From: Neptunicoccus cionae
Lineage (GTDB): Bacteria; Pseudomonadota; Alphaproteobacteria; Rhodobacterales; Rhodobacteraceae
Length of the DNA: 64,000 nucleotides
Assembly: GCF_014643735.1 (NCBI RefSeq)
Contig: NZ_BMKA01000004.1
Location: 62,001-126,000 of the forward strand
Reading direction: 5' to 3'
Part shown: positions 12,362 through 64,000 of the stretch, piece by piece
Position numbering within the stretch: position 1 is the stretch's first letter
Layout: each line of letters starts with the position of its first letter
Translations under genes and position numbers: made by a program
The notes under the pieces: generated by a model
Told to the model about the DNA's origin: nothing
The model's database searches: none
Seen by the model: only the letters and a program-made list of their open reading frames with translations

Positions 12362-12372
12362 GGTCAAGGGAG

Positions 12373-12403: not shown

Positions 12404-12427
12404 TTTCATTGCAAAGGAATGAGGGCG

Positions 12428-26233: not shown

Positions 26234-26307
26234 TGGTCTGTCTCCATCGTTTAACGGGATGACCAGCGAAAAGAAAGGACTGCGGGCGGAGTTCGCCTGT
26301 GCAGTGT

Positions 26308-26391: not shown

Positions 26392-26482
26392 GATAAAATT
26401 TGTCTGTGCCAATGGTTAGGACAGTTCGCACCGCCGTGCAATGGGCAATTCGGTCCGATTTTTTGGACCGGTCTTTGGCATG

Positions 26483-47600: not shown

Positions 47601-47698
47601 AGCAAATCCTCGAATTCAATATTGACACAAAACGGGATTCGGGTGTCTTGTTCAAGAATAAACCTTCTACTTTGCAACTTTCTTTGAGGTTCCTTCCA

Positions 47699-49423
47699 AT
47701 GGCGTCCAATCCTAAAAAGCCCCTCCGCTCGCGTATTACGACTGACGGGTTGGACCGCAGCCCCCATCGAGCTTTCATGCACGCCATGGGGCTCGATGAT
47801 GCAGCGATTGCCAAGCCGATGGTCGGGGTTGTCAGCCAGAAAGGGGAAACGACCCCCTGTAACATGACCCATTACACGCAGGTCGAATACGCCAAGGAAG
47901 GCGTGACAATGGCAGGCGGCACCCCGCGGGAGTTCACGACGATCTCTGTGTCCGATGGTGTCGGGATGAACCACGAAGGCATGAAGTTCAGCCTTGTCAG
48001 CCGCGAATTGATCGCCGACAGCATCGAAGCCGTGATCCACGGCCACGCCTATGACGGGGTGGTTGGCTACGGCGGCTGTGATAAAACCTTGCCCGGTGTG
48101 ATCATGGGAATGGTGCGCTGCAATGTGCCTTCTGTGTTTGTTTACGGCGGGTCGGCTTTGCCGGGGCGTTTTCAGGGCCGTGATGTCAGCGTTCTTGACA
48201 CATACGAAGCCGTGGGCGCGGTGCAGGCCGGTACGATGACCCATGACGAGTTGACCCAGTTGGAAGAAGCCTGCAAACCCACTATCGGGTCTTGCGCAGG
48301 CCAGTTCACGGCCAACACAATGGCGATGGTGTCAGAAGCATTGGGACTGACCGTGCCGAACTCCTCTATGATCCCCGGTGTCTATTCCGAGCGTAAGGGC
48401 GTTGGCCACCGCGCCGGTGCGCTGGTGATGGATATGATCGAACGGGGCGGTCCCCTGCCCCGTGACATTGTCACCCGCAAGGCACTGGAAAACGCCTGCG
48501 CGATTGTGGCGGCGACGGGCGGGTCCACCAATACGGCGCTTCATATCCCAGCCATCGCGAACGAGGCTGGCATTCCTTTCACCGCCGATGATGTGGCCGA
48601 AGTGCTGCAACGGACGCCTTTCATCGGCAACCTGCGTCCGGGTGGGAAGTATCACGCGAAGGATGTCTACGAAATCGGGGGCGCCCATGTGGTGATCAAA
48701 GAACTGATCGCGCATGGTTATATGCATGGTGACACGCTGACAGTTACAGGCCGCACCCTTGCCGAAGAAGTTCAGGACGCACCGGCACCGGACGGAGAGA
48801 TCATCCGCCCTGTGAAAGATGCGATCATGGACTCCGGTGGTGTTGTAGTGCTGAAAGGCAATCTTTGTCCCGACGGTGCTTTGTTGAAAGTGGCCGGATT
48901 GAAATCCCTGACCTTCACCGGAACGGCCCGCGTTTTCGAAAGCGAAGACGATGCGGTGGAGGCGGTACACACTCGCGACTATAAAGAAGGCGAAATTCTG
49001 ATCGTGCGCAATGAAGGCCCCGTCGGCGGGCCGGGCATGCGTGAAATGCTGGGCCTGACGGCGCTGATTTACGGTCAGGGCATGGGCGAGAAAGTCGCGC
49101 TGCTGACAGACGGTCGGTTCTCGGGCGCAACACGGGGCATGTGCATCGGTCACGCGGCCCCCGAAGCGGCCACCGGCGGACCGATGGGTCTGGTTCAAAA
49201 CGGCGATACAATCACAATCGACGGCGCGGCAGCTACAATCACTCTTGATGTTTCGGATGCCGAACTGGATGAGCGGCGCAAAAGCTGGCGCGCACCGGAA
49301 ACCCCCCATAAGGCAGGGTTGTTGTCGAAATACGCCGCCACCGTTGGACAGGCCCATGAAGGCGCTGTGACGCACGCGGGCAATGCGCAGTGGCCGGCAT
49401 CCCGCAGAAAAGGAATGGAATGA
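47699..49423 (+). CDS. ilvD: Dihydroxyacid dehydratase / IlvD-Edd family dehydratase
   Basis: A 574-residue Fe-S dehydratase. Cluster cysteines are consistent with Cys in [13 protein letters not shown] and [27 protein letters not shown] and [13 protein letters not shown] are the C-terminal family motifs. The family covers 2,3-dihydroxyacid dehydratase and sugar-acid dehydratases. The surrounding genes (TRAP transporter, GarR, Hyi) make a sugar-acid role as likely as branched-chain amino-acid synthesis. ATG 47699 follows GAGG; the open frame from 47648 is poor. Confidence 0.82.
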
Positions 49424-50310
49424 TGCAACATACGCCAACCGTCGGATATATCGGAACAGGCCTGATGGGCGCTCCAATGGCGACCCGTCTGATTGATGCA
49501 GGCTATGAGGTGACGGTCTGGAACCGCACTGCTGCCAAGGCACAGCCGCTGGTGGAAAAAGGCGCAAAGCTGGGCCAAGACGCGGCAGATGTTGCGGCCC
49601 GTTCGGACATCGTCTTCATGTGTTTGACCGACACCAAAGCGGTAGAGGCCGCTGTTTTCGGGGAAAACGGCGTGGCAAGCGGCGCGAAGCGGGGATCGGT
49701 TCTGGTTGATTTTTCATCTATCCAACCGGACGCAACCCGCAGCATGGGGGAACGCCTGAAAGATCAGGCCGGTATGGATTGGATCGACGCGCCTGTGTCT
49801 GGCGGCGTTCCGGGGGCCGAGGCAGGCACGCTGGCGATTATGGCCGGTGGCGAACAGGAGGTTTTCGACAGGGTTGAAAACGTTGTGTTGAAAATGGCCG
49901 CGCGTTTCACCCTGATGGGGCCGGCGGGGGCGGGCCAGACCACCAAGCTGTGCAATCAGGTGATTGTCGGGTGTACCATGAACATTCTGGCCGAGGCCGC
50001 GCGTCTTGCCACCAATGCAGGGGTCGATGCGAACCGCCTGCCCGAAGCGCTCGCCGGTGGGTTTGCCGATAGCAAACCGTTGCAGATTTTCCTGCCCCGT
50101 ATGGTCAATGCCCAGCACGAACCACCTTTGGGGCATGTGGAGACCATGCTCAAGGATCTCGATTCCGTTTGCGAACTGGCAAAATCCTGCGGCTCGCCTG
50201 TGTTGTTCTCGGCACTCGCTGCAGAACAGTTCCGCTTGCTGAGCGCGCGGGGCGGCAAAGAAGCCGATGCGCTGGAAATTTACAAACTGAGCGGGCCAAG
50301 CAAGCTTTAA
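49420..50310 (+). CDS. garR: 2-hydroxy-3-oxopropionate reductase / 3-hydroxyisobutyrate dehydrogenase-family enzyme
   Basis: A 296-residue beta-hydroxyacid dehydrogenase with NAD(P) motif [32 protein letters not shown] and the catalytic Lys in [11 protein letters not shown]. It likely reduces tartronate semialdehyde to glycerate. The ATG at 49420 overlaps the ilvD stop; ATG 49423 is equally possible. It is followed by a TRAP transporter operon. Confidence 0.83.
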
Positions 50311-50364
50311 CAGGGCGCGAAAAACAGGCATCATCGATTTATTAAGACAACAAGGGAGAGTGAA

Positions 50365-51411
50365 ATGAAAATATTAGCAACTTGGGGACTGGCGCTTGCG
50401 ATGGCAGCCAGTTCACTTCCAGCCATGGCGCAGGATACGAAAACCATACGTGTCGGATCGTGGCTTCCACCGCATCACCTGATCGTATCGGGCATCCTGA
50501 AACCGTGGGCTGCCGCGATTGAGGATGAAACCGGCGGGTCGCTGAAGTTTGAGATTATGACATCTGCGCTCGGCCCGCCCCCTGCGCAATTCGATCTACT
50601 GCTCGATCAGGCGTTTGACGTGGGTTACGGCGTATCCGGCCACAACGCGGGCCGTTTCCCGCTGACGCAAGTAATGGACCTGCCGTTCATGTCCCCCGAT
50701 CCGTGGGCCGGCTCTGCTGCTTCATGGCTCACCTATGAAAAATATGGTGCGGATTACGGTGAACACGACGGCGCCCATGTGGTTGGCCTGTTCACCCACT
50801 CCAACCCGAATATCAACATGGCCAAAGGTCGGGTTGATACGCTTGAAGACCTCAAAGGCAAAACCATTCGTGTGGGTGGCAATGTGACGGGCCGGATCAT
50901 GTCCGAACTGGGCGCGTCCCCCGTGCAACTGCCCCCGACCGAAGCACAAACCGCAATGTCGCGCGGCGTTGCGGACGGGATTACCTTCCCGTCTGAATCC
51001 ATCGACTTCTTCGGCATCACGCCGGTTATTTCATCCATCACCCGTGTTCCGGGTGGTCTCTATACCGATACTTTCTGGGTGGCCTTCAATCAGGACACTT
51101 GGGACGGGCTGAGCGAGGCTGAACAGGCAGCGGTCAACAAACACTCCGGCATGGCGATTGCGATGCTGTCAGGGTTCGCATGGACCAATGGCGACAAGCA
51201 CGGTGAAATGAAGCTGAACGAGAAGGGTGTTGAATTTGTCACCCTACCCGAAGCCGATGTGACCAAAGCCCGCGAGACGTTGAAACCGCTGGAAACTGAA
51301 TGGCTCGCGCTCGCCAAGGAAAAGGGTTTCAATGGCGAGGAAATCCTGTCCTACGCCCGCGCAATGGTGCAGAACTACCGCGCGGACACCGAAGTGAACG
51401 TGGTTAAGTAA
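50365..51411 (+). CDS. dctP: TRAP transporter substrate-binding protein (DctP, second)
   Basis: A 348-residue secreted protein with signal peptide MKILATWGLALAMAASSLPAMA. It has the DctP core VDTLEDLKGKTIRVGGNVTGRIMSEL, with the conserved Arg in TIRVGG, and AVNKHSGMAIAMLSGFAW. A GGGAGAG ribosome site precedes it. Its ligand is probably a carboxylate or sugar acid. It is separated from dctQ by a hairpin that would raise its level over the membrane subunits. Confidence 0.88.
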   Translation: MKILATWGLALAMAASSLPAMAQDTKTIRVGSWLPPHHLIVSGILKPWAAAIEDETGGSLKFEIMTSALGPPPAQFDLLLDQAFDVGYGVSGHNAGRFPLTQVMDLPFMSPDPWAGSAASWLTYEKYGADYGEHDGAHVVGLFTHSNPNINMAKGRVDTLEDLKGKTIRVGGNVTGRIMSELGASPVQLPPTEAQTAMSRGVADGITFPSESIDFFGITPVISSITRVPGGLYTDTFWVAFNQDTWDGLSEAEQAAVNKHSGMAIAMLSGFAWTNGDKHGEMKLNEKGVEFVTLPEADVTKARETLKPLETEWLALAKEKGFNGEEILSYARAMVQNYRADTEVNVVK

Positions 51412-51419
51412 GACACAAC

Positions 51420-51448
51420 AGACGGCGCCGGTTCATTGGGCGCCGTCT
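51420..51448 (+). terminator. Hairpin between dctP and dctQ
   Basis: AGACGGCGCC (51420-51429) pairs with GGCGCCGTCT (51439-51448), followed by GACCTTTTT. A 10-base stem and near T-run suggest partial termination or mRNA stabilisation. Confidence 0.75.
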
Positions 51449-51473
51449 GACCTTTTTCCAAGCCGAGACAGTA

Positions 51474-51986
51474 ATGACACCTGCAATCTCCGTCTTCGAC
51501 AGGCTTTGCCTTGCCCTTGCATGGCTGTCCGGCCTGATCGCCTTTTTCGTCATGTCCGTGACCTTCATCGGGGTCGTGATGCGTTACGGTCTGCGCAGTC
51601 CTTTGATGGGCGGTTTTGAGATGATCGAGATCGGCATGGGCCTGATGGTTTTCACGGCTGTCCCGCTGATGATCCGGCGGCGCAGCAATATCACCGTCAC
51701 CATTCTGGTAGACCGGTTTCCGCCCGCACTGCTGCGGGCTACCGGTTTTATCGCCGATATGACCGGCGCTGTTTTGATGGGCTTCATTGCATGGCGGGTC
51801 TGGTTACAGGGGGAACGGTTGCTGCGCTATAACGAGGTGACAATGGAACTGCGGGTGCCCAAGGGGCTGATCGCGCAGGGCATGTCCGTCTTGCTGGTTG
51901 TCGCTGCGCTGGCTTTTCTGCTGTGCGCGGTTGAGGCCTTCATGCGCAACCGTCCTGCAACTTCAGACCATCCGGGGAGCCTGTAA
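51474..51986 (+). CDS. dctQ: TRAP transporter small permease (DctQ, second)
   Basis: A 170-residue membrane protein with four hydrophobic segments and a DctQ-like GVVMRYGLRSPLMGGFEMIEIGMGLMVF core. It shares one base with dctM. Confidence 0.87.
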   Translation: MTPAISVFDRLCLALAWLSGLIAFFVMSVTFIGVVMRYGLRSPLMGGFEMIEIGMGLMVFTAVPLMIRRRSNITVTILVDRFPPALLRATGFIADMTGAVLMGFIAWRVWLQGERLLRYNEVTMELRVPKGLIAQGMSVLLVVAALAFLLCAVEAFMRNRPATSDHPGSL

Positions 51987-53287
51987 TGGGAGTTTGGGAA
52001 ATCGCAGCGATCTCTTTTGGCGGGGTCTTTGTGCTGATGATGGGCGGGATGCCTATTGCGCTGGCCATGCTGCTGGTTGGGCTTTCGGGCATCTGGATCA
52101 ACCTGTCGGAACGCACCGCGATGGGGATGATCGGGCAACTGCCAATCAACGCCACCATGTCCTATGAACTATCAGTGCTGCCGATGTTCATCCTGATGGG
52201 TGTTTTTGTGACACGAGCACGGATGTCCGAAGACCTCTACCGCCTGTGCCACGGTTTTGTCGGCCACATGCGCGGCGGGCTGGCGGCGGCGACAATCCTT
52301 GCCTGCGGCGGGTTTTCCGCGCTCAGCGGGTCATCCCTTGCAACGGCGGCCACAATGGCCAAAGTGGCGGTGCCGGAAATGCGCCGGTACGGGTATAAGG
52401 ATGGGTTCGCGGCTTCGGCTGTGGCGGCGGGGGGCACACTTGGCATCCTGATCCCGCCTTCTGTGATCCTTGTTCTATACGGCATTGCGACCGGTACGGA
52501 CATCGGTTCCCTATTTATTGCAGGTATCATTCCGGGTATCCTTGCGATCCTACTTTATCTGGCGGCAATCCGCGTTGCGGCCCAATTGGACCCTGCACGC
52601 GCGCCTGCTGCGCCCCGTGTCGGCTGGGACATTCGCTTACGCTATCTGCGCAGCGTCGGGCCGATCCTGTTGCTGTTTATCGGTATTATCGGCGGACTTT
52701 ACAAAGGCGTCTTCACCCCGACAGAAGCAGGCGGAGTGGGCGCGACCGGCGCACTGGCCTTTGCCCTGTGGCGGCGTTCGCTATCATGGCGCGATATGGT
52801 GGAGTCTCTGGTGGAAACGGTCCAGACCACTGCCAGCCTGTTTCTGGTGCTGATCGGCGCATTGGTCTTTTCGAACTACATGAACCTGATCGGCCTGCCC
52901 GGCGCCCTGTCCGATCTGATCACCTCTTTAGGGTTGGGACCGACGGCAGTTATTCTGGCGATCCTGGTGATCTACCTTTTTCTGGGCATGTTCATGGAAA
53001 GCCTTTCCATGATCCTGCTGACCATCCCGATCTTCTTTCCCATTGTCACGCAACTCGGCTTTGATCCGGTCTGGTTCGGCATCTTCGCGGTGATGGTCAC
53101 CGAACTGTCCCTAATTACGCCGCCCGTGGGGTTGAACCTATTCGTGATCAAATCGGTGATCGACGACCTATCTGTCGGCGAAATGTACCGTGGCATCATG
53201 CCCTTCGTACTGGCGGACCTTCTACGGATTATCATCATTATCGGCTTTCCTTGGATCGTTATGGTGCTGCCGGAACTGGCGCGGTGA
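51986..53287 (+). CDS. dctM: TRAP transporter large permease (DctM, second)
   Basis: A 433-residue multi-pass permease of the DctM family, with PMFILMGVFVTRARMSEDLY, SALSGSSLATAATM, AAGGTLGILIPPSVIL and FTPTEAGGVGA. Together with DctPQ it forms a Na+-coupled carboxylate importer. The stop overlaps the possible GTG start of the MarR gene. Confidence 0.9.
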   Translation: MGVWEIAAISFGGVFVLMMGGMPIALAMLLVGLSGIWINLSERTAMGMIGQLPINATMSYELSVLPMFILMGVFVTRARMSEDLYRLCHGFVGHMRGGLAAATILACGGFSALSGSSLATAATMAKVAVPEMRRYGYKDGFAASAVAAGGTLGILIPPSVILVLYGIATGTDIGSLFIAGIIPGILAILLYLAAIRVAAQLDPARAPAAPRVGWDIRLRYLRSVGPILLLFIGIIGGLYKGVFTPTEAGGVGATGALAFALWRRSLSWRDMVESLVETVQTTASLFLVLIGALVFSNYMNLIGLPGALSDLITSLGLGPTAVILAILVIYLFLGMFMESLSMILLTIPIFFPIVTQLGFDPVWFGIFAVMVTELSLITPPVGLNLFVIKSVIDDLSVGEMYRGIMPFVLADLLRIIIIIGFPWIVMVLPELAR

Positions 53288-53289
53288 GC

Positions 53290-53829
53290 ATGGTTAAACA
53301 GCAAAACCCGACGCCCCCCGAAGATGCGCCTCTAAAATACGGGGCGGATGTTGCGCCAGACAGTGCCTCTATTGATCAGGGCATGTTGCAGGATTTCATG
53401 GGCATGTATCTGCGCCGTGCCTATGAAGTCGCCTATGAAGATTTTCGCAGGCGGCTTGGCAAGGACGCGATGCAGCCGGGGCATTTCACCATCCTGACAC
53501 TGATCGTGCGCAATCCCCGCATCAGCCAGACGCAGATCGGTACGGCCTCGGCGCGGGACAAGTCGAGCGTGACCAAAGCCTTGCGGTCTATGGAGGATGC
53601 GGGACTGATCCAGCGTCTGCGATCCGGCAGTGACCGGCGCATTCATCTAAGCATTGCGACCGAAGAAGGCATCGCAATGCAGGCACAGATGGAGACCGAA
53701 GCCGCCGCCCACGTCAAAGCCTTGCACGATGCCATCGGGCCGGAGCGCTACGATGCGTTTCTGACGACGATGAAAGACATGATCCGCACGCTGGAAGAGG
53801 CCGCCTGCCAGAATGACCATAAGCAATAA
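53290..53829 (+). CDS. MarR family transcriptional regulator
   Basis: A 179-residue MarR protein with winged helix: HFTILTLIVRNPRISQTQIGTASARDKSSVTKALRSMEDAGLIQRL and the wing GSDRRIHLSI. It is downstream of the second TRAP operon and probably controls it or the neighbouring ilvD-garR genes. ATG 53290 is used; GTG 53284, overlapping the dctM stop, is possible. The protein has an acidic/Pro-rich extension at the start. Confidence 0.86.
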   Translation: MVKQQNPTPPEDAPLKYGADVAPDSASIDQGMLQDFMGMYLRRAYEVAYEDFRRRLGKDAMQPGHFTILTLIVRNPRISQTQIGTASARDKSSVTKALRSMEDAGLIQRLRSGSDRRIHLSIATEEGIAMQAQMETEAAAHVKALHDAIGPERYDAFLTTMKDMIRTLEEAACQNDHKQ

Positions 53830-53865: not shown

Positions 53866-54996
53866 TCAGGTCGCGGAAAGGGCCGTTCGCATTTCGCGGA
53901 TCGCATCCCCGATGTCATCGCCATAGCGCAACAGGCTGCCGCCCAGCAGATAGACGCAATCCTCGCCGTAGTGGGACATCATATCCCCAAGCCGGTCGAG
54001 CGACATGCCGCCACCCGGACTTGGCAGGATCGCAGGGCCGGCACCATTTTCCGCACGGCATGCATCTACAATCGAACTGCATTCGTCCTTGGAGAACCCG
54101 AACCGCCCGCCATAATTGGGGAAGACCGAAATATCGGCCCCCGCCATCCGCATCAGCTGGCCAAACAACATCCCGTGGCTGTAGCCGTGATCGGGTGACA
54201 GAACGTAAGGCCCCAAATGGCTCGGGTGGGCCATGATCGGCAGGCCGAAATCCGCATCCTGTGCCAGCCGGTTCATCGCATCAAAGCCGAACAGACCGGG
54301 GATCAACAGAATACCAGTCGCCCCTGCGTCTTTGGCATAATACGCCAGATCACGTACCTGATCGCCGTGGCCGCCAATGCTCGCGAAATAGAGAGCGCGG
54401 CTGGTGTCGCCCTGATCCGCCCGTTCGCGATTGGCCTGTTGAACCGCTGCGGCGCAGGCTTTGACCCGTTCCTTGAACGGTGCTGCATCCTGATTGGACA
54501 GTCCGTGGTCCTCTTTCACGATATCCGCACCGGCAACCGCCGTCAGGTAACACAACCGCGCAAGGGTTTCGGACGAACTGCCCTGCGGCTTGATCACAGG
54601 ACAGACATAGCCCCCCGATTTGCGCCCCGTCAGTTCACGCAAGCCCGTCGCACCGAACCGCGCACCGGGGAACCGTTCCGCCAGAGCACCATTGGCCTTT
54701 AGGTCGATGGCCTTCACACCGCGCAGGATAGAGGCGTTGCCAAGGATCACATTCAGCAGTTGAGGCAGCTCTCGCCCCACCGCATCCATGTGATACCCGA
54801 TCCGCCCGACCCAGACGCCATTGCCACAGGCCGTGACCGCCTCGACCCGACCGAGCACTGTATCCTCGACATAGCCCGTAGGAACCACATCGCGCGGGAT
54901 TTCGACTGTGTCTTCCAGCGCAATCGCTTCGGCGCGGGCCATTGCATCCGCGTCATCCTCTGCAACGATCCGGTAGGTTACAGTAAAGCGGTCCAT
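53866..54996 (-). CDS. RuBisCO-like protein (form IV)
   Basis: A 376-residue large-subunit homologue of RuBisCO. It keeps a Lys in VIKPQG (Lys136, like spinach Lys175), the carbamylatable Lys161 and Asp163 (KEDH, for KDDE) and the phosphate-binding GGG (328-330) and GG (352-353). It changes others: second Lys of KPK to Gln, Glu204 to His164, the HIHR region to HPSH, and the loop-6 Lys to Arg/Gly (NYGGRFG). CO2 fixation is therefore unlikely. It probably performs enolase/isomerase chemistry on a sugar phosphate, as the Rhodospirillum rubrum protein does on methylthioribulose-1-phosphate. It precedes no stop-coupled gene and converges with MarR. Confidence 0.88.
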   Translation of the reverse strand: MDRFTVTYRIVAEDDADAMARAEAIALEDTVEIPRDVVPTGYVEDTVLGRVEAVTACGNGVWVGRIGYHMDAVGRELPQLLNVILGNASILRGVKAIDLKANGALAERFPGARFGATGLRELTGRKSGGYVCPVIKPQGSSSETLARLCYLTAVAGADIVKEDHGLSNQDAAPFKERVKACAAAVQQANRERADQGDTSRALYFASIGGHGDQVRDLAYYAKDAGATGILLIPGLFGFDAMNRLAQDADFGLPIMAHPSHLGPYVLSPDHGYSHGMLFGQLMRMAGADISVFPNYGGRFGFSKDECSSIVDACRAENGAGPAILPSPGGGMSLDRLGDMMSHYGEDCVYLLGGSLLRYGDDIGDAIREMRTALSAT

Positions 54997-56000
54997 TACA
55001 GACCCTCGGCCTTGGCCAGCGAATGCACCGCGTCAACACGGGCTTCCGCCAGATCGGTTTCGGTAATGCCAAGCTTTTGACCCAGCAAATCCTCAACCCC
55101 TTGGGTCAGTGCCAGCGCGTCCAACCCGTAGTAGCGCATCAGATAGGCACGGCTGCCCCCGTGGGCATAGGTGTCTTTTAACCCAAGACGGCGCAGTTTC
55201 TTGCCAACACCGTTATCCGCCATGACCTCTGCCACCAGAGACCCGATGCCCCCTTCGGTGACGTGGTTTTCCAGCGTAATCACCCCGCCTTTCACCGCAT
55301 TGATATGGTCAAGGATCGCTTCGGCGTTGAAAGGTTTGATGGTGTGCAGATGCAGGTGACGCACGGAAACGCCTGCCGCTTCCAACGCTTTGGTTGCACG
55401 CATGGCTTCTTCGGTGGTGATACCGGCGGTGACGATCAGCACATCATTGCCAAGGCTCAGCTCGCGCATTTCACCGACCTTGATCGGCGTGTCGAACAGG
55501 CGGGGCATGGAGCCGCGCAGCACGCGGCAATAGACCGGACCGTCGATGCTGTCGGCAGCTTCACAGATGCTCTCCACTTCGGTTGCGTCGCCGGTTTCAA
55601 GGATCGTCATATTCGGCATGGAGCGCATGACCGAAATATCCTCAATAGCCTGATGGGTCATGCCGCCCGGTGTCGTGATACCCGGCAAGAACCCCATAAT
55701 CCGCACCTTGCGCCGTGGATAGGCAATCGACGCCATCAACTGGTCATAGGGACGACGATAAGTGAAAACGCCAAAGGTGTGGATAAACGGACGATACCCA
55801 GCGAGTCCCAACCCGCCGCAAAAGCTCATCATGTTTTGCTCGGCCATTCCCATAGACAGGAACTGGTCGGGGTGGTTGTCGCGGAATTTGTCGATCTCGC
55901 AAGATGATGTCAGATCCGCAGAGATACACAGAACCTCGGGATTGGCGAGTGCGTGTTTTTCAAAAGCCCGCTCGTAGGGGCGGCTTACCATTTCTACCAT
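54996..56000 (-). CDS. Transketolase C-terminal subunit
   Basis: A 334-residue half-transketolase carrying the Pyr and C-terminal domains. The catalytic Glu54 is in SMGMAEQNMMSFCGGL, and GGVITLENHVTEGGIGSLVAEVM is the C-terminal motif. It pairs with the N-terminal subunit gene 14 bases upstream and shares one base with the RuBisCO-like gene. Split transketolases of this kind often act in specialised sugar catabolism (for example apulose-4-phosphate) rather than in the pentose cycle. Confidence 0.87.
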   Translation of the reverse strand: MVEMVSRPYERAFEKHALANPEVLCISADLTSSCEIDKFRDNHPDQFLSMGMAEQNMMSFCGGLGLAGYRPFIHTFGVFTYRRPYDQLMASIAYPRRKVRIMGFLPGITTPGGMTHQAIEDISVMRSMPNMTILETGDATEVESICEAADSIDGPVYCRVLRGSMPRLFDTPIKVGEMRELSLGNDVLIVTAGITTEEAMRATKALEAAGVSVRHLHLHTIKPFNAEAILDHINAVKGGVITLENHVTEGGIGSLVAEVMADNGVGKKLRRLGLKDTYAHGGSRAYLMRYYGLDALALTQGVEDLLGQKLGITETDLAEARVDAVHSLAKAEGL

Positions 56001-56014
56001 TTTAACGGCTCCGG

Positions 56015-56956
56015 TCAGTGTGCGTAGTCGATGGGATCAACACCCAGCGAGTCTGCGATTGAGATGTTCATGCGGGCGCGTTCCTCTTCGGATTTGAAAC
56101 GCACATAGTGAAGACGCGGAAAACGTTCTTCCAGAATGGGCATGGCGTGGAACGGGTTGGAGTTGGCCAGAATGATCAGGGGTTTCCCGTCATGTTTCGT
56201 CTTGGCCGCCTCGCGCATGTCGTTGACATTATGGGCGTCTACCTCGACCACTACAGCGCCGAAGTTTTCCATCTTGGTTTTTATGTCACCCACTTCCATG
56301 ACGGAATCCATCGCCCCGTCACATTGCTGGCGGTTCACATCCATGATCGCTTTGACGTTGTCTATCCGGTGGTGCGCACAGCACTGGATCGCTTCCCAAG
56401 TCTGGCCTTCCTGCACTTCGCCGTCAGACATATAAACCCAGACGCGCCCCTTCTCGCCCTTACGCTTACGCGCCCAAGCCAGACCTGCGGCAGTAGACAA
56501 ACCAATGCCCAGCGTGCCGTTATGCACCTCCATGCCGGGGCTGTGCTCTGCACCGATCATTTCAACGCTGGAGCCGTCCTTGTTAAACATCTCCAGCCCC
56601 TCAGCCGCCATACGGCCTGTTTCGATCAGCGTGGCATAGGCCACCAACGCGTAGTGCGCTGGGGCAATGAACAGACGATCATACTCCGGTTCAAACGGAC
56701 CGTTATATCCGGCTCCGGTGTGATAATCTGGATTGTCCGCATGGGGAACGCCCTCAAACGGTTTCGGGATCATCGGCAAAGTTGGCGCGCCGAGGTTCAG
56801 TTCCTCATTATAAAGCCAAGCCAGTTGTTCGGCAGAGGAGCAGGCCTGCGACAGATACCCGCCATTGTTGCGCATCGCATGTTCAAACACGCGGCGGCGG
56901 ATTCCAAGGGCAATGTCTTCGGTGGTTCGTTCGTTCTTCACGGCAATATTCCACAT
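56015..56956 (-). CDS. Transketolase N-terminal subunit
   Basis: A 313-residue half-transketolase carrying the PP domain. The ThDP motif is SDGEVQEGQTWEAI (177-190), and AEHSPGMEVHNGTLGIGLSTAAGLAWA is typical. It has an unusual extra region (about 60-90, GVPHADNPDYHTGAGYNGPF) before the FIAPAHYALVAY motif. ATG 56956 has only a weak ribosome site. It lies upstream of the C-terminal subunit; 264 bases separate it from the transporter genes. Confidence 0.87.
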   Translation of the reverse strand: MWNIAVKNERTTEDIALGIRRRVFEHAMRNNGGYLSQACSSAEQLAWLYNEELNLGAPTLPMIPKPFEGVPHADNPDYHTGAGYNGPFEPEYDRLFIAPAHYALVAYATLIETGRMAAEGLEMFNKDGSSVEMIGAEHSPGMEVHNGTLGIGLSTAAGLAWARKRKGEKGRVWVYMSDGEVQEGQTWEAIQCCAHHRIDNVKAIMDVNRQQCDGAMDSVMEVGDIKTKMENFGAVVVEVDAHNVNDMREAAKTKHDGKPLIILANSNPFHAMPILEERFPRLHYVRFKSEEERARMNISIADSLGVDPIDYAH

Positions 56957-57220
56957 TGGCCGGCGCGGGGGGCCGACAGGTTTAAAAGGAAATTCGGTTG
57001 GTCGGTTTCGGGGCGAAAGAGGCGGTTAGATCACCACCGCTTTACGCAGAAAAACACATGCAAAGGGGCGCAGCGCGAACGATCTCGCAACGGCGCACGG
57101 ATGGGCGGTTCGCTGGAAAATGCTGGGCGCAGTGGTCTGGACAAGGCAGATACCCTTTGGGTGTTAAGATGGTCGTTAGAGGCACCGGCCCGCCGTGACA
57201 GCGGGCCGGTATAGATCGAT

Positions 57221-58261
57221 TTAGCGTGCTGGAAGTGGCATCCAGTCCGTCATCGCAACATCTGCATGCTGGAATTGTGGCATCTTGGCGCCCAGTTCTT
57301 CCATGTTGCTAACGTCTTGTTCATTCAGGAAATCCTGCGTGATCAGGGTCGGTGGAACCACAACGGAGTTGCCGGGGTTTTCGCCGGTCAGCAGCAGGGC
57401 CAGCGTGCGCACGGAAACCTCACCCACAACGGACGGGTTGGTGGCAACAGTCGCAACCCAAGCGGAATCCGGTTCCCGCATGGCGGAAATATCGGCGGTA
57501 GAGACATCGGCAGAATAGATTTTGATATCCTGTGTCAGACCGGCCTCATCCACCGCGATTTTCACCCCTTTGGCGAATTCGTCAAACGGCGCAAACATCA
57601 CGTTGATGGTCGGGTTGGCTTGCAGAATGGAACGGGCTTGGTTCGCAACCGCATTGGCAATCGGATTGTCGAGCGTGCCAAAAACAGCCGCTTCCTTGAT
57701 GCCAGGATTGGCCTGTTTCACTTCTTCCCAAGCCACATCACGACGGTCCAGCGGTGCGATGCCGGGAACATAAACGTAACCGGCGGTAAAGTCGGTGCCG
57801 TTATCTTCAATCGCCTGATCGAGCGCCAGTTTACCCAGCATATAGTCGGACTGCTCTATCTGTGGGATCGCTGCGTTTTCTACATCTACGTCAAACGCAA
57901 CAACCTTGATGCCCGCATCCACAGCGCGCTGTGCAGCGTCTTTCATGGATTCAGTCAGACCGTGCTGAATGATGATCCCGTCCACGCCAAGGGCGATGGC
58001 CTGATCGACCATATCCGCCTGCAATGCTGCGTCCTGACGGCTGTCAAACACCCGAAGATCCATGCCAATTGCGGCCGCCTGTGATTCCACGCCAGACAGG
58101 TAAGACTGGAAGAAATCGCCTGTGGACAGGTAACGCACCAGCGCGATTTTTACGTCCTCCGGCTTGTCCAGAGGGGCTGGCATATCCGCGAATGCGGTGC
58201 TGCCCAGACCTGTGGCAAGGGCTGCAAGCCCTGCGAATTTAATAAAATGACGTCTCAACAT
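57221..58261 (-). CDS. Ribose-type ABC transporter periplasmic binding protein
   Basis: A 346-residue secreted binding protein of the ribose/galactose family. A Tat-like start (RRHFIKFAGLAALATG) leads to a type I periplasmic fold with ALVRYLSTGDFFQSYLSGVESQA, DGIIIQHGLTESM and VVAFDVDVENAAIP. ATG 58261 with GGGAGG is chosen over an upstream start in the permease gene. It captures the sugar for the importer; the ligand is likely a pentose or 5-modified pentose given the mtnK/mtnA neighbours. Confidence 0.85.
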   Translation of the reverse strand: MLRRHFIKFAGLAALATGLGSTAFADMPAPLDKPEDVKIALVRYLSTGDFFQSYLSGVESQAAAIGMDLRVFDSRQDAALQADMVDQAIALGVDGIIIQHGLTESMKDAAQRAVDAGIKVVAFDVDVENAAIPQIEQSDYMLGKLALDQAIEDNGTDFTAGYVYVPGIAPLDRRDVAWEEVKQANPGIKEAAVFGTLDNPIANAVANQARSILQANPTINVMFAPFDEFAKGVKIAVDEAGLTQDIKIYSADVSTADISAMREPDSAWVATVATNPSVVGEVSVRTLALLLTGENPGNSVVVPPTLITQDFLNEQDVSNMEELGAKMPQFQHADVAMTDWMPLPAR

Positions 58262-58283
58262 GATTTTTCCTCCCATCAGTTGA

Positions 58284-59306
58284 TTAGGTTTTTCCACCGG
58301 AACCGCGCTTGGCGCTCAGGTAGAAGGTAAAGACAAGCGCAATCACAAGAACCGCGCCTTTCACGAAATCCTGTGTGTAGTAAGGCGCGTTCATCATGGT
58401 CAGCCCTTGCAAAAGGATACCCACAAACAGCGCACCGACAGCGGTGCCAAAGGCATTGGGACGCGCCGCGCCAAGCACCGCAAACCCGATCAAAGCCGCT
58501 GCCACACTGTCGAGCAACAGATTGTTACCGCTGGCAATATCGCCACGCCCCAGACGCGCCGCCAACAGGATGCCCCCGATAGAGGCCGTTACGCCGGAGA
58601 TCATATAGGCAGCGATTTTGTAGCGGTTCACATTTGCACCAACCAAGGCCGCCGCACGCTCGTTAGAGCCGATCGCATACATCAACCGTCCGTGACGGGT
58701 CAGTTCCAGAAACACCCAAATGGCAAGGGCGGTGATCAGGAAGATGACAACCGGAACCGGAACCAGACGTTCGACCACCATATCAAACCGGTGACGGCCA
58801 AGCCACAGGAACGCTTGGGAAAACGCGCCTTCAGCGACACTGCCGTCAGGCAGTTTCATGCCGGTTGCGATGGAATTGCCCTGTGTCGGTATCCGTTGCA
58901 AACCGATCAGCAGGAACATCATTCCCAAGGTTGCCAGCAGGTCCGGCACCTTGAACTTCACAATCAGCAGGCCGTTGATCAGCCCGACAACAGCGCCCAT
59001 GAATAGACACAGCATCACCGCAGAAAACGCCGACATTTCAAGGATCACCATCGCATAGGCAGACAACATCAGCGAAGTTGTCGCCACAGACCCAATTGAC
59101 AGATCAAACCCATCCACCACCAGCGTACAGGTCACACCAAGCGCCAGAATCCCCGTGATCGCAACGGATTGAAGGATAAAGGCCGCCGACCGCGGAGAGG
59201 CAAATCCGCTGGCGGACAGGCTGAAATACAGCACCAGCCCCATCAGAAGGATCAAAAAGCCGAAGCGGATCGCAAAGTTTAGGATTTTCTCGTTATTCAT
59301 AGTCAA
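58284..59306 (-). CDS. Ribose-type ABC transporter permease
   Basis: A 340-residue RbsC-like permease with about eight hydrophobic segments. The family marks GFDLSIGSVATTSLML and AGSNERAAALVGANVNRYKIAAYMISG (here GSNERAAALVG) are present. It forms the channel of the importer; start overlaps the ATPase gene by four bases. Confidence 0.87.
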   Translation of the reverse strand: MTMNNEKILNFAIRFGFLILLMGLVLYFSLSASGFASPRSAAFILQSVAITGILALGVTCTLVVDGFDLSIGSVATTSLMLSAYAMVILEMSAFSAVMLCLFMGAVVGLINGLLIVKFKVPDLLATLGMMFLLIGLQRIPTQGNSIATGMKLPDGSVAEGAFSQAFLWLGRHRFDMVVERLVPVPVVIFLITALAIWVFLELTRHGRLMYAIGSNERAAALVGANVNRYKIAAYMISGVTASIGGILLAARLGRGDIASGNNLLLDSVAAALIGFAVLGAARPNAFGTAVGALFVGILLQGLTMMNAPYYTQDFVKGAVLVIALVFTFYLSAKRGSGGKT

Positions 59307-60811
59307 TTCGCCTGTGTTTGGGCGTCTTTGGCCCCTGAGACCTGCGCAATCAGCGCATCAAGGTCGATGTTTGAGTTTTCATGGGTGCCAACAATCGCGC
59401 CTTCGTGCAGCACGATGATCCGGTCCGCAATTTCCAGCGCTTCGTCGAGTTCGGCCGCGAACACCAGCGTGGCGCGCCCCTTGGCGGTGGCGCGTATGTG
59501 GCGGCCAATGTCGCGGCGCGCGCCGATGTCCACACCTTGAAACGGTTCATCCAGCAACAACACGCGGCTGTCTTCCAGCAACCAGCGACCGATCATAACC
59601 TTCTGCTGGTTACCCCCAGACAGGGTGCCAATGCCGTCCTGATCAGACTGACATTTGACGCCGATCTGTTTAATCATATCCGTCGCCGCCCCGCGTTGTT
59701 TGCGTTTACTAAGCAGGGACAGGCGGCTGAAACTGCCCAGAAACGGCAGTGTCATATTGTTCGCGATATCAAAATCAGGGATCACCGCATTGGTGCTGCG
59801 GTCTTTGGAAGACATGAAAACCCCCGCCGCAACCGCTTGGCCAGCCGAGGCTGGCGCATAGGGCTGGCCGTCAATCCGCAACTGCCCCGTCTTCACCGGC
59901 TTCTGTCCGAAAATCATATCCGCAAGCTGGCTTTTGCCACTGCCCAGCAGTCCGGTGATGGCGACGACTTCCCCATCATGGGCAGAGAAACTGACCGGCG
60001 TGTCGCTGCCATCCAGCATCACGCGCTCTACTTCCAAAATAGCCGACCCACCGGAGGCAACGTCGATATTCACATCCGTCATCCGATGCCCGAGCATCGC
60101 CGTAACGGCACCATCGTAGTCCAGCGGCGCCTGATCGAAAACGCCGGAAATCTTGCCATCCCGCATACAGACGATCCGGTCGGCAATGCGGCGGATATCG
60201 GACATGCGGTGAGAAATATAAAGAATGGCCACGCCTTGTTCGCGCAACCGGTCCAGCAGCGCAAAAAGGCGCTCCGCCTCAGAGGCTGACAGGGATGACG
60301 TGGGCTCATCCAGAATAAGAACTTTGGGGTCATAGGCCATAGCGCGGGCAATGGCGATCATTTGGCGATCCGCAACGGACAGGTCAGACACCCGCGCCCG
60401 CACATCCAGATCAAGCCCCATATTATCGGCCACCTTACGCGCTGCCACCCGCAAGGCGCGATCCCGCACCAGCAAGCTTGCACCGTGCTCTGTCAACCGG
60501 TTCAGCATCAGGTTCGTGGCTACATCAAGATCGGGAATCACACCGTCATCAATGGACTGGTGGACTGTCACAACACCGCGCGCAATCGCGTCTGCAGCAT
60601 CCGCAGGATCAAAGGGCTGCCCTTCCAGCGTCATGGTACCAGCGTTCGCGCCCTGAAACCCGCAGAGGATTTTCACAAGGGTGGATTTACCAGCACCATT
60701 GGCCCCCATCAGGACCACTACCTCGCCAGAATCCAGATCCAGATCAATACCGCGCAATACATGATTGCGGCCGAAAGACTTCTCCAGTCCTCTGATTTCA
60801 CAGGCTTTCAT
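59303..60811 (-). CDS. Ribose-type ABC transporter ATP-binding protein (double ATPase)
   Basis: A 502-residue RbsA-like protein with two ATPase domains. The first has MGANGAGKSTLVKIL and LSVADRQMIAIARAM with LILDEPTSSLSASE. The second has a shorter Walker region (ITGLLGSGKSQLADMIF), LSGGNQQKVMIGRWL and LLLDEPFQGVDIGARRDI. ATG 60811 starts MKACEIRGLEK; the longer frame reaches into the promoter region. It is the first gene of the leftward operon that continues through the permease, binding protein, transketolase and RuBisCO-like genes. Confidence 0.88.
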   Translation of the reverse strand: MKACEIRGLEKSFGRNHVLRGIDLDLDSGEVVVLMGANGAGKSTLVKILCGFQGANAGTMTLEGQPFDPADAADAIARGVVTVHQSIDDGVIPDLDVATNLMLNRLTEHGASLLVRDRALRVAARKVADNMGLDLDVRARVSDLSVADRQMIAIARAMAYDPKVLILDEPTSSLSASEAERLFALLDRLREQGVAILYISHRMSDIRRIADRIVCMRDGKISGVFDQAPLDYDGAVTAMLGHRMTDVNIDVASGGSAILEVERVMLDGSDTPVSFSAHDGEVVAITGLLGSGKSQLADMIFGQKPVKTGQLRIDGQPYAPASAGQAVAAGVFMSSKDRSTNAVIPDFDIANNMTLPFLGSFSRLSLLSKRKQRGAATDMIKQIGVKCQSDQDGIGTLSGGNQQKVMIGRWLLEDSRVLLLDEPFQGVDIGARRDIGRHIRATAKGRATLVFAAELDEALEIADRIIVLHEGAIVGTHENSNIDLDALIAQVSGAKDAQTQAN

Positions 60812-60885
60812 GCTTTTTCCCAGATCTTGTTTTTGAGTCCGCCAAACCGAGGCACGCCCCTTCGATAGTAAGCATTTCAACAGTT

Positions 60886-60931
60886 GTCAAATCATTTGTC
60901 TATTGACTAGTTCACTTTCCGTCGCGATAAA
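60886..60931 (+). promoter_or_regulatory. Promoter and palindromic operator of the mtnK operon
   Basis: A -35 box TTGACT (60903-60908) is followed after 17 bases by GATAAA (60926-60931), a good sigma70 promoter; the ATG of mtnK is 29 bases downstream. Just upstream lies CAAAT-C-ATTTG (60888-60898), a perfect inverted repeat within GTCAAATCATTTGTC. This is in the intergenic region shared with the divergent ABC operon, so a SorC-type regulator bound here could control both directions. Confidence 0.55.
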
Positions 60932-60959
60932 CACCACAGGAATAACGGGAGACTTCGGG

Positions 60960-62216
60960 ATGGAGAACGCGAATTACACGGCCCTGACGCCAGAGACACT
61001 TTCAACACGTCTGGTCGCCCTTCCGGCGGTCACTGAACGGCTCGGCACGGATGCGGAAAGCTGGCAGGTTAAGGAAGTTGGCGACGGCAATCTGAACCTT
61101 GTATTTATCGTGCAAAGCGATCAGGGCAGCATTATCGTAAAACAAGCGCTGCCTTATGTGCGCCTTGTCGGAGACAGCTGGCCACTGCCGCTTTATCGCG
61201 CTTATTTTGAATATCATGCCCTGACCCGTCAGGCCGCCCGCGATCCGGGAACTGTGCCGGAGATTTACCATTTTGACGAGGATCAGGCGCTGATCGTGAT
61301 GGAATTCCTCTCCCCCCATGTGATCCTGCGCAGCAAGCTGATTGCCGGTGAAAAAGTCGACGATCTCGGCGCGTTCTGCGGCAAATACTGCGCCCGCACG
61401 GCGTTTCGCGGCTCCGAACTGTCGATGACATCCGCCGATAAAAAGGCCGATGTCGGGTTGTTCGCTGGCAATGTGGAAATCCCCGCCATCACCGAAGGGT
61501 TGGTTTTTACCGACCCGTACTTTGAGGCAGAGCTGAACAATCACACCCCCGAACTGGAACCGGTGATCAACGAGCTGCGCAACAACATAGAACTTAAGCG
61601 GATGGCGCAGGTGATGCTGACGAAATTCGCGTCCAACACGGAAACGATGGTCCACGGCGATCTGCATTCCGGATCTATCATGGCGACACAGTCGGAAATC
61701 CGCGTTATTGATCCCGAGTTTGCACAATACGCGCCGCTGGGGTTTGATATCGGGATGCTGACCGCAAATTACCTGATGGCCTATTTCAGCCAGCCCGCCC
61801 ATCGGGGGACCGATCTGGAAGCTTATCAAGACTGGATTCTGAGCGTGATCACCGAATGTTGGTCCAGCTTTGAGGCAGAGTTCCGCCACCTTTGGAATAC
61901 CGAACGCACCGGCATGTTATTTCCTAAATCCCTGTTTGAAGATCAGGGCCACAGTTCCGAAACAGCCTGTGACGGTGTTCTGGCGGACATCTGGCAGGAC
62001 GCGTTGCGGTTTTGTGGCATTGAAATGCACCGCCGTTGCCTGTCGCTGGCCCATAATGCGGATTTTGAAACCATTGAAGACACCACCGTTCGCGCGCCGC
62101 TTGAGGCCCGCAACCTGCAAATGGGCGCAGAACTGGTGCTAAAAACCGATACACTGAAAGATGCCAAAGCGCTGATCGCGCTGGCACGGACATTTAACGC
62201 AAGGAACATCCTATGA
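60960..62216 (+). CDS. mtnK: S-methyl-5-thioribose kinase
   Basis: A 418-residue kinase with MtnK motifs GDGNLNLVF (41-49), [10 protein letters not shown] with the ATP-binding Lys61, VHGDLHSGS (231-239) and the DPEF metal site (251-254, [17 protein letters not shown]). It phosphorylates C1 of 5-methylthioribose; homologues can also accept 5-deoxyribose-type sugars. ATG 60960 follows GGGAGACTTCGGG. It overlaps mtnA by four bases. Confidence 0.92.
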
Positions 62217-63310
62217 AAGTAAACGGCACCCATTACCGCTCTTTGTGGTGGAATGCACAGGATGACGTGCTGGAGATCATCGACCAGCGCTCCCTGCCGT
62301 ATGAATTTATCACTCAGCAAGTGAAAACGCTGGAGGATTTTGAAGACGCGATCGTGGAAATGCGTGTGCGTGGTGCGCCTCTGATCGGGGCGACGGCCGC
62401 CTATGGCATGGCGCTGGCGTTAAAGCTGGACGCCTCGGATGCCCATATGGATGCAGCGTGGGAGCGGTTGAATGAAACCCGCCCCACTGCGATCAACTTG
62501 CGTTGGGCTTTGAACCGTTGTCGCGAGGCAATGCGCCCCCTGCCCGAAGCAGAGCGTGCGGCGGCAGCTTTACAGCTTGCCCATGACATCGCGGATGAAG
62601 ACGTGGAAATCTGCCGCCAGATCGGGGAACACGGGTTGAAATTGATCCGTGAAATCGCCGCGAAAAAACCGGCCGGTGAACCTGTCCGCTTGCTGACCCA
62701 CTGTAACGCAGGCTGGATTGCGACTGTGGACTGGGGCACTGCCACAAGCCCGATGTATCACGCCCATGACGCCGGAATCCCGCTGCACGTCTGGGTTGAT
62801 GAAACCCGTCCGCGCAACCAAGGGGCATTGACCTCTTGGGAATTGGGTAGCCACGGTGTACCACATACCTATGTGACAGATAACGCCGGAGGCCATTTGA
62901 TGCAGCACGGACAGGTCGATATGGTTATTGTCGGCACCGACCGCACCACGCGGCGGGGCGATGTGTGCAACAAGATCGGCACCTATCTCAAAGCACTCGC
63001 CGCCCATGATAACGGGGTTCCGTTCTATGTGGCTCTGCCCTCTCCGACCATCGACTGGACCGTGGATGACGGCGTGGCCGAGATCCCGATCGAGGAACGC
63101 AGCCCGCGCGAGACCACCCATATTCAAGGCACGATGGAAGACGGTTCGATCGGTGTGGTTCAGGTCACGCCCGAAGGCACACCGGGGGGCAATCCTGCCT
63201 TCGACGTGACGCCGAACCGGCTGGTCACAGGTCTGATCACCGAACGGGGCGTATGCGAGGCGACACCCGAAGGGCTCGCTGCGTTGTTCCCTGAAATGGC
63301 AGGCGCCTAA
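62213..63310 (+). CDS. mtnA: S-methyl-5-thioribose-1-phosphate isomerase
   Basis: A 365-residue isomerase of the MtnA/eIF2B-alpha family. It has [14 protein letters not shown] early, catalytic Cys164 in LTHCNAG and Asp243 in [11 protein letters not shown]. It converts 5-methylthioribose-1-phosphate to 5-methylthioribulose-1-phosphate, the substrate of the R. rubrum-type RuBisCO-like protein. A hairpin spans its stop and the following GTG start. Confidence 0.93.
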
Positions 63311-63322
63311 AAGTGGCGCCTG
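63300..63322 (+). promoter_or_regulatory. Hairpin across the mtnA stop and regulator start
   Basis: CAGGCGCC (63300-63307) pairs with GGCGCCTG (63315-63322) over a seven-base loop that holds the mtnA TAA (63308-63310) and most of the regulator GTG (63313-63315). Ribosomes finishing mtnA would open it, so expression of the regulator may depend on mtnA translation. Confidence 0.4.
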
Positions 63323-64000
63323 CGTCCGCCTCCTCTGCGCGTCCGGGCGTTGATTCAGCCGGACGCGGATCGCGGCAGGACGATCTTATCATCGAGGCCG
63401 CATGGCTTTATTTCCATGACGGGTTGAACCAGAACGAAATCGCCAAGCGGCTCGATGTCAGCCGCGCCTCTGTGGTTAATTATCTCGCCGAGGCCCGCCG
63501 CCGCGATTATGTGCGCATTACGCTGGACAGCGATGTGTTTCGCAACAACCGGCTGGCGTCCGAATTGCGAGCGAAATTCGGGCTGGTTGATGCGCTGGTG
63601 GTGCCCGAGGACGGCAGTTCACAACAACGCTCCGCAGAGCGGGTGATCCGCGCAGCATCTGATTGGTTGCCCCATCTTCTGGAACCCGGCGATCATCTGG
63701 GCATCGCATGGGGCGAAACGATTTACCGGCTGGCCCAAATCGCGCCGAAACTAATGATGGACGATCTGACGATTGTGCAGTTGTTGGGCTCGAAACCCTC
63801 TGAAATCGGCTTTGCGGCAGAGAACTGTGCAGCAACGCTGGCGCAACGGTTTAGCGCCTATTGCGCCAATCTGCATGTGCCGCTGATGCTGTCCACGGCA
63901 GAGTTATGTGAGCAATTGAAGGCCGAACCGATGGTAGCGGCGCAGCTTAAAATGGTGACAGATTGCAAGAAAGTGATCTTTGCCGCAGGCACCACCGACC
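63313..64000 (+). CDS. SorC/DeoR-type sugar-binding transcriptional regulator (partial)
   Basis: The first 229 residues of a regulator that runs off the window. An N-terminal helix-turn-helix (GLNQNEIAKRLDVSRASVVNYLAEA) is followed by a sugar-phosphate-binding domain: LLEPGDHLGIAWGETIYRLAQ and a ribose-isomerase-like VIFAAGTTD. SorC members bind a phosphorylated sugar as effector. The GTG start has no clear ribosome site and depends on the hairpin at 63300. It probably regulates the mtnK-mtnA operon and the divergent ABC/RLP operon. Confidence 0.85.
   Translation, partial: MAPASASSARPGVDSAGRGSRQDDLIIEAAWLYFHDGLNQNEIAKRLDVSRASVVNYLAEARRRDYVRITLDSDVFRNNRLASELRAKFGLVDALVVPEDGSSQQRSAERVIRAASDWLPHLLEPGDHLGIAWGETIYRLAQIAPKLMMDDLTIVQLLGSKPSEIGFAAENCAATLAQRFSAYCANLHVPLMLSTAELCEQLKAEPMVAAQLKMVTDCKKVIFAAGTTD

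Follow-up and report, generated by a model that had tools for sequence, protein, structure and literature searches.

Methylthioadenosine (MTA) is a by-product of S-adenosylmethionine use in cells generally, and to our knowledge its sugar is recycled through MtnB-D, a cupin, or an aldolase. In the MTA-isoprenoid shunt of Rhodospirillum rubrum and Rhodopseudomonas palustris, a RuBisCO-like protein (RLP) works with a cupin, and the products are 1-deoxy-D-xylulose-5-phosphate (DXP) and methanethiol. According to the excerpted text of PMC5893883, R. palustris RLP1 converts 5-methylthioribulose-1-phosphate to 1-methylthio-D-xylulose-5-phosphate (MTXu-5-P) and 5-methylthioribulose-5-phosphate at a ratio of 3:1, and the cupin was assayed in R. 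palustris as the methanethiol release step after RLP1. In Escherichia coli with a dihydroxyacetone phosphate (DHAP) shunt, the sulfur ends as 2-methylthioethanol (PMC10986504, in excerpt). Here, we describe a locus from Neptunicoccus cionae, a bacterium related to marine species, that lies at the end of a 64,000-nucleotide stretch of contig NZ_BMKA01000004.1 (the window) and combines an RLP with a split transketolase, TktN and TktC (together TktNC). Based on gene content and alignments, we put at about 60% the probability that TktNC stands in for the shunt's cupin and would cleave MTXu-5-P to glyceraldehyde-3-phosphate (G3P) and a two-carbon, sulfur-bearing (C2-S) unit.

The locus consists of two divergent operons. 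On the minus strand are the genes for the RLP (53866-54996; PF00016, 47.7 bits), TktC, the C-terminal half of the split transketolase (54996-56000; PF02779 Transket_pyr and PF02780 Transketolase_C; best PDB match 6yaj, a split transketolase), TktN, the N-terminal half that binds thiamine diphosphate (ThDP) and metal (56015-56956; PF00456 Transketolase_N; best PDB match 6yak), and a sugar importer of the ATP-binding cassette (ABC) type. The importer comprises an RbsB-type periplasmic binding protein (57221-58297; PF13407, 118 bits), an RbsC-type permease (58284-59306; PF02653, 137 bits), and an RbsA-type ATPase (59303-60880; two ABC_tran stretches), whose true start is probably at 60811, with a start, MKACEIRG, that is common to the related locus L009. 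On the plus strand are mtnK, of the 5-methylthioribose kinase family (60903-62216, true start probably 60960; TIGR01767, 465 bits against a cut-off of 275), mtnA, encoding 5-methylthioribose-1-phosphate isomerase (62213-63310; TIGR00512, 430 bits against a cut-off of 279), and a SorC/DeoR-type regulator truncated by the window end (63313-64000; PF04198, 103 bits). Overlaps of 1-14 nt join RLP to TktC, the binding protein to the permease, the permease to the ATPase, and mtnK to mtnA. The sequence and the gene starts in a close relative place the control region between the operons at about 60812-60959 (no strand assigned); neither an inverted repeat nor a sigma-70-like site was found in this spacer, which says little. 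A preliminary description of this DNA had named the eight genes and the SorC regulator in this divergent layout, and family matches confirm every one of them in position and strand. The locus thus resembles the MTA-isoprenoid shunt in having an entry enzyme for 5-methylthioribose (MTR) and an MtnA, both over cut-off, an RLP whose catalytic residues match those of cupin-type RLPs, and MTXu-5-P as the predicted RLP product. Unlike the shunt, it has a split transketolase and no cupin, it adds the ABC importer, MtnK, and the SorC regulator, and its proposed products would be G3P and a C2-S unit instead of DXP and methanethiol.

To survey RLP partners, we searched 385 genomes of the class, 390 genomes of the order of L009, and 397 genomes of the order of L069. 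Matches were found in 21 genomes of the class (E up to 1e-30) and in 25 and 33 genomes of the two orders (E up to 1e-60), and 75 RLP loci (L089-L163) were examined with flanks of about 1.5 kb. TktNC adjoined the RLP in 47 loci and a cupin methylsulfurylase in 22, and no locus had both. The remaining six loci comprised four remote RLPs (23-27% identical), L094, which is cut by a contig end, and L138, in which a window-type RLP without transketolase was confirmed over 19.5 kb (as L164). Four RLP matches had no locus in this count; one of these, L170, was fetched later, and neither transketolase nor cupin was seen beside it. In the class sample, the TktC clade (at least 532 bits; next match 297) occurred in three genomes, the same three that carry a transketolase-linked RLP.

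We then assembled 117 distinct TktC loci: 80 from a TktC scan (the best 80 of 465 relatives, so that less similar contexts are under-sampled), 32 fetched by their RLP, and five from plasmids. Gene maps were made by tblastn. An mtnA gene was present in 61 of the 117 loci, and all 61 contained RLP; the best-80 scan loci alone gave 35 of 35. RLP directly followed TktC in 76 of the 79 loci that possess RLP, and TktN directly preceded TktC in 114 of 117. The link between RLP and the split transketolase is well beyond chance, as is the recurrence of the wider gene group, mtnK, mtnA, and RLP accompanying 53 of the 117 loci. The absence of the cupin, noted in the preliminary description, extends to all TktC loci (0/117), and the proposal that a split transketolase stands in its place agrees with the partition of the 75 RLP loci. 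Because of its position and the enzyme that precedes it, TktNC takes the place of the cupin; RLP and TktNC form a unit that replaces RLP and cupin, and the transketolase as the next enzyme is therefore the natural reading. As a separate observation, the RLP of L164 (5722-11790) is 64% identical to that of the window and lies by a sugar ABC system, with no transketolase in 19.5 kb and with a sugar-acid-dehydratase-like gene nearby that scores below cut-offs.

Judging by its sequence, the window RLP would isomerize 5-methylthioribulose-1-phosphate to MTXu-5-P. Its best PDB match is 3qfw, presumably R. palustris RLP1, which is also the best PDB match of one cupin-linked RLP. K136, K161, and D163 are invariant across 80 transketolase-linked RLPs and 24 cupin-type RLPs (23 with the cupin seen, plus L094). 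H164 is kept by all 24 cupin-type proteins and has a single exception among the 80 transketolase-linked ones; in the RLP of the plasmid locus L006, this position is Asp. The cupin-type RLPs form one clade (SH-aLRT 100), outside which the window RLP falls, 31% identical to one cupin-type member, and the tree requires one change between cupin and transketolase as partner. This tree and the TktN+TktC tree below are quick trees in which long branches are flagged. Two other identities were rejected: an MtnW-type enolase, which acts on 2,3-diketo-5-methylthiopentyl-1-phosphate in Bacillus (TIGR03332, 131 bits against 514; NF007095, 178 bits against 409), and an OiaX-type RLP of the D-apiose/oxo-isoapionate pathways (NF042437, 53 bits against 700).

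TktNC keeps the ThDP machinery and, by alignment, has a changed donor site. Residue positions were taken from profile alignments to human transketolase and the Carboxydothermus split enzyme ChTK (PMC7661550, in excerpt), and copies from the same genome were kept in the counts while the outgroup L007 was left out. Like ChTK and the split transketolase SqwGH, TktNC has two chains, the ThDP-binding residues (TktN D178 and N208, each 167/167), and the catalytic Glu (TktC E54, human E366, 169/169). Tyr34 of TktN occupies the position of human H37 (121/121), and TktC retains S33 (human S345, 168/169) and R162 (human R474, 169/169). The phosphate site, whose motif is discussed in the accessible part of PMC11659671, is only partly confirmed: human R318 has no exact counterpart, S6 standing at its position with R7 next to it. 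Unlike ChTK and SqwGH, TktNC has Ile at human H110 (TktN I134, 122/122 covered loci), Leu at H416 (TktC L105, 169/169), and Gly at D424 (TktC G112, 169/169); G112 occurs in none of 27 other TktC-like proteins. We presume that H110, His103 in yeast, contacts the donor C1-OH (a mutagenesis paper on this residue is cited in PMC3352088), and the roles and yeast names of the other aligned residues are likewise those we assume.

We infer the substrate, how it is cut, and what becomes of the C2 unit as follows. The locus would import MTR, the sugar left from MTA, for degradation. MtnK would convert it to MTR-1-phosphate, MtnA would convert this to 5-methylthioribulose-1-phosphate, and the RLP would shift the carbonyl to give MTXu-5-P. 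In TktNC, ThDP would attack C2 and break the C2-C3 bond, freeing G3P and leaving a ThDP-bound 2-methylthio-1-hydroxyethylidene unit. Methanethiolate may then be expelled to give acetyl-ThDP and, from it, acetyl-phosphate or acetate; alternatively, protonation of the bound unit would give methylthioacetaldehyde. Xsc (sulfoacetaldehyde acetyltransferase) expels sulfite, and phosphoketolase expels water, from a ThDP-bound intermediate to form acetyl-ThDP; the likeness of TktNC to these enzymes lies in the proposed chemistry, by which a ThDP-enamine with a leaving group on its beta carbon would collapse to acetyl-ThDP. The ketose-1-phosphate probably has a further way out through a class II aldolase, and since that route already makes methylthioacetaldehyde, expulsion of methanethiol seems the more attractive option.

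The contexts of TktNC bear on the substituent carried by the substrate. We assigned the 117 loci to types by identity cut-offs of our own choosing. The window type, with mtnK, mtnA, and RLP, accounts for 53 loci (ABC ATPase in 52), and mtnA with RLP and no mtnK for eight, of which seven have a purine nucleoside phosphorylase, five a deaminase-like amidohydrolase, and three a BisC-type S/N-oxide reductase. A xylulokinase-like kinase without RLP marks 30 loci, every one with a BisC-type reductase; a Zn-dehydrogenase is present in 22 of them, an aldolase/4-epimerase-family gene in 19, and a sulfatase in 14. Both kinase and RLP are found in three loci (BisC in two), RLP only in 15 (BisC in four), and neither in eight (BisC in two). 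The best-80 scan splits 30/5/28/3/6/8 in the same order. BisC thus also occurs in nine loci with RLP and transketolase (3/8, 2/3, and 4/15 by type). Against TIGR00509, an S/N-oxide reductase family with a cut-off of 1018, the BisC-type protein of L001 reaches 901 bits and that of L002 reaches 845; the best structure match of the L001 protein is dimethyl sulfoxide reductase. The phosphorylase and deaminase-like genes of loci lacking mtnK point to entry from a nucleoside, and methylthio and 5-deoxy substrates both fit these loci. Separately, a taurine-type binding protein occurs in 11 of the 30 kinase-type loci without RLP (for example, among loci like L002 and L003), and a formylglycine-generating-enzyme-like gene recurs in nine loci (for example, L088:1555-2511).

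L012, of the kinase type, is the nearest relative of the window outside its own close group; its TktNC is 94-95% identical to that of the window, and in place of RLP its neighbors are a xylulokinase-like kinase, a BisC-type reductase, and a Zn-dehydrogenase. Across 115 TktN+TktC pairs, the mtnA and kinase contexts interchange at least 12 times, compared with a mean of 27.6 changes, and a lowest value of 22, in 200 shuffles of context. Because TktNC is highly conserved in the two settings, the same kind of substrate is expected in both, and either route, by MtnA-RLP or by the xylulokinase-like kinase, can lead to a 1-substituted xylulose-5-phosphate. The BisC-type oxide reductase in the sister contexts hints at a thioether substituent, with an amine as the alternative, and the shared intermediate is most likely the methylthio one. 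The preliminary description had left the substrate as MTR or 5-deoxyribose; the first is now favored, and the second less so. We also entertain, more tentatively, that TktNC is a new, C-S-cleaving ThDP enzyme, a "methylthio-phosphoketolase" that would yield G3P, methanethiol, and acetyl-phosphate or acetate and would be the shared core of modular thiosugar pathways. This core would be fed either by MtnA-RLP (from methylthioribose or methylthioadenosine) or by dehydrogenase-xylulokinase-sulfoxide-reductase modules, the latter possibly acting on marine pentoses or pentitols that carry an oxidized methylthio group.

The nearest relatives of the window locus are in Neptunicoccus sediminis (L009), a Rhodobacteraceae metagenome-assembled genome (MAG; L010), and Amylibacter cionae (L011), with identities to the window of 99-100% for TktC, 90-92% for RLP, and 86-89% for MtnK. 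In all three, the order is mtnK-mtnA-sorC-aldolase, and the aldolase open reading frame overlaps the sorC end by 4-43 nt. These aldolases are 91-100% identical to the L009 copy (1040-1738), which matches PF00596 Aldolase_II with 183 bits and is FucA-like (231 bits against the FucA cut-off of 264; PDB FucA, E = 1.5e-58); against the MtnB model it scores 69 bits, with a cut-off of 137. The absence of a class II aldolase stated in the preliminary description is therefore an artifact of the window edge: the window stops inside sorC, so its own copy is not visible. The aldolase exit is probably present in the window's locus as well. As in the DHAP shunt and 5-deoxyribose disposal, then, the locus has mtnK, mtnA, and a transporter, with a FucA-like aldolase beyond the window in its closest relatives; unlike the DHAP shunt, it adds RLP and TktNC as a second exit.

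The 23 other genomes with TktNC that we searched differ from those with universal methionine salvage in that neither MtnB nor MtnD was found over cut-off (0/23 each; matches below cut-off in 19/23 and 1/23, respectively). A cupin is present in one of the 23 (Roseiarcus), MtnA is present in 19, and MTA phosphorylase is over cut-off in 12; the four genomes lacking MtnA (G008, G009, G010, and G014) are the ones whose loci are of the kinase type. As in the MTA-isoprenoid shunt, methanethiol could be captured by O-acetylhomoserine sulfhydrylase, an enzyme found in 23/23 of these genomes and common elsewhere (9/14 controls over cut-off). In the three closest genomes, the mtnA of the locus is the only one found and MTA phosphorylase is encoded elsewhere; the cell's own MTA therefore probably drains through the locus too. 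A housekeeping role for TktNC was excluded, as a full-length transketolase is encoded elsewhere in all 12 genomes searched.

Several observations weigh against the proposed cleavage of MTXu-5-P. BisC is found in none of the 53 window-type loci, so that the sulfur clue comes from sister contexts, and the L001 deaminase-like gene scores below the cut-offs of all 25 models listed for it. The correspondence of donor-site residues is one of sequence alignment, with the role of His103 presumed; moreover, 12 of the 27 other TktC-like proteins likewise have Leu at position 105, and one other TktN-like segment has Ile at 134. By the chosen thresholds, 15 transketolase loci have RLP and no mtnA (mtnK is present in one of them, and a xylulokinase-like gene of its own in L006), and eight have neither RLP nor kinase, although several of these loci are short contigs. 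No conserved neighbor that would handle acetyl-phosphate, acetate, or methylthioacetaldehyde was found, the unnamed neighbors having been sampled only; an AMP-ligase near the transketolase in L050, considered for this role, scores as a long-chain fatty-acyl-CoA ligase and is an ordinary neighbor. The closest relatives carry the aldolase, which alone could suffice. Lastly, the backbone works without RLP and TktNC. An MtnK search of 244 genomes of the order matched 26 (16 RLP-positive and 10 not), and nine of the 10 are divergent ABC and mtnK-mtnA loci without RLP or transketolase within 19.9 kb, the tenth being a remote MtnK (40%). The preliminary description had held that homologous loci keeping mtnK and mtnA without RLP and tkt would refute the pathway; this is partly borne out, nine of 25 related loci being so arranged. 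The exits in the nine are a FucA-like aldolase in five and an aldolase/SDR in one, with no class II aldolase detected in three (L266-L268). Since RLP and transketolase are missing together, we read the pair as an optional exit module, one of several exchangeable exits from a common backbone of import and activation; the backbone-only loci are no evidence that RLP-TktNC is without the role proposed here. One of them, L268 (14395-16571), contains RbsD-like, ribulose-phosphate-3-epimerase-like, and LsrF/DhnA-like aldolase genes, identified by eye.

The aldolase leads to another explanation, in which the locus is a DHAP shunt (kinase, isomerase, and class II aldolase) for 5-deoxyribose or MTR and RLP-TktNC is an accessory for a minor side product or epimer. 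Besides the aldolase adjoining sorC in L009-L011, a class II aldolase lies within the flank of 31 of the 53 full loci and in six of the nine backbone loci; the E. coli DHAP shunt allows 5'-deoxyadenosine and MTA to serve as carbon sources (PMC10986504, in excerpt), and kinase-isomerase-FucA-like clusters have been described, some with transporters (PMC6079011, in excerpt). However, none is seen in the flank of the other 22 full loci or of seven of the eight mtnA+RLP loci without mtnK, and there RLP-TktNC would have to serve as the sole exit if no aldolase is encoded outside the flanks searched. We regard this explanation as rather unlikely. Less probable again is that the substrate is 5-deoxyribose, which the RLP would convert to DXP and TktNC to G3P and acetaldehyde or an acetyl unit. 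Kinase and isomerase homologs act on 5-deoxyribose in the clusters described in the same excerpt of PMC6079011, the L001 deaminase-like gene reaches 301 bits against a 5'-deoxyadenosine deaminase model (cut-off 522), and the 0/53 count for BisC would fit. Yet BisC in 30/30 xylulokinase-type loci without RLP and in 3/8 mtnA+RLP loci without mtnK argues for a sulfur (or nitrogen) substituent, and DXP, a biosynthetic precursor, would be wasted.

TktNC might instead be a true transferase, passing C2-SCH3 to an aldehyde acceptor or using normal donors with an aldolase-derived aldehyde as acceptor. The transketolase fold and ThDP site are in keeping with this, and the split sulfofructose transketolase SqwGH transfers in the sulfo-TK pathway (PMC11659671, in excerpt). 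Every covered member nevertheless has Ile in place of the His presumed to contact the C1-OH, and Gly in place of D424; we noticed no gene for a product of the 1-methylthio ketose kind, and seven mtnA+RLP loci with TktNC show no class II aldolase in their flanks. A transferase is, to our minds, the least probable of these alternatives and a very improbable one.

Cleavage of MTXu-5-P by TktNC remains the reading we prefer, and we file it as a new, MTA-isoprenoid-shunt-like route with a putatively different last enzyme. In the open-access library searched, no pathway joining an RLP, methylthioribose, methylthioxylulose, or methylthioadenosine to a transketolase was found, long result lists being judged by their top entries; PMC8102628, on the methylthioribose and transketolase topic, deals in its accessible part with promiscuous 7-deoxysedoheptulose formation. 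If correct, the transketolase exit would supply central carbon as G3P, and perhaps as acetyl units, and would free methanethiol with no need for oxygen, giving a new recycling route for a common waste sugar and pointing to unrecognized thiosugars as nutrients. It would also explain what one RLP branch does, and likewise a split-transketolase clade that, among the best 80 of 465 relatives, is found in many Rhodobacterales and Rhizobiales. Unlike ChTK and SqwGH, this clade has an RLP or xylulokinase-like gene beside it in 109 of 117 loci. TktNC is also a test case for ThDP-dependent C-S cleavage by beta-elimination outside Xsc.

Some TktC loci lie far from these orders. L006, on a plasmid of the gammaproteobacterium Vibrio nigripulchritudo, combines TktN-TktC-RLP, a sugar ABC system, and a xylulokinase-like kinase (8054-12673). 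Two Acidobacteriaceae MAGs (L080 and L084) have RLP, a regulator, TktN, and TktC, with RLPs about 40% identical to that of the window; in L080, TktC is followed by a sulfite-oxidase-family molybdoenzyme that scores 140 bits against the SorA model (cut-off 600). The locus of Enemella evansiae TN21-6 (L057), labelled Actinomycetota, is near-identical to the Ponticoccus plasmid locus L001 (BisC 96%, purine nucleoside phosphorylase 96%), which reflects either recent transfer or contamination. No TktC relative was found in viral_contigs, and a viral origin of TktC was dropped.

Elsewhere in the window, a thiamine pyrophosphate (TPP) riboswitch (26297-26398, minus strand, 79 bits) lies within 24432-26431 (minus strand), where genes for a ThiD-like kinase and a DAO-type oxidase probably make up an operon for thiamine synthesis; because the riboswitch falls inside the 5' part of the longest open reading frame, thiD must start within that frame. 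At 30306-32042 (minus strand), the window encodes another ThDP enzyme, whose three TPP_enzyme domains give it an acetolactate-synthase-like architecture. Next to the locus, 47648-53829 (plus strand) is possibly a sugar-acid operon with an IlvD/EDD dehydratase, further open reading frames, a relative of TRAP-like large permeases, and a MarR regulator; relatives of its genes also occur in L009-L011.

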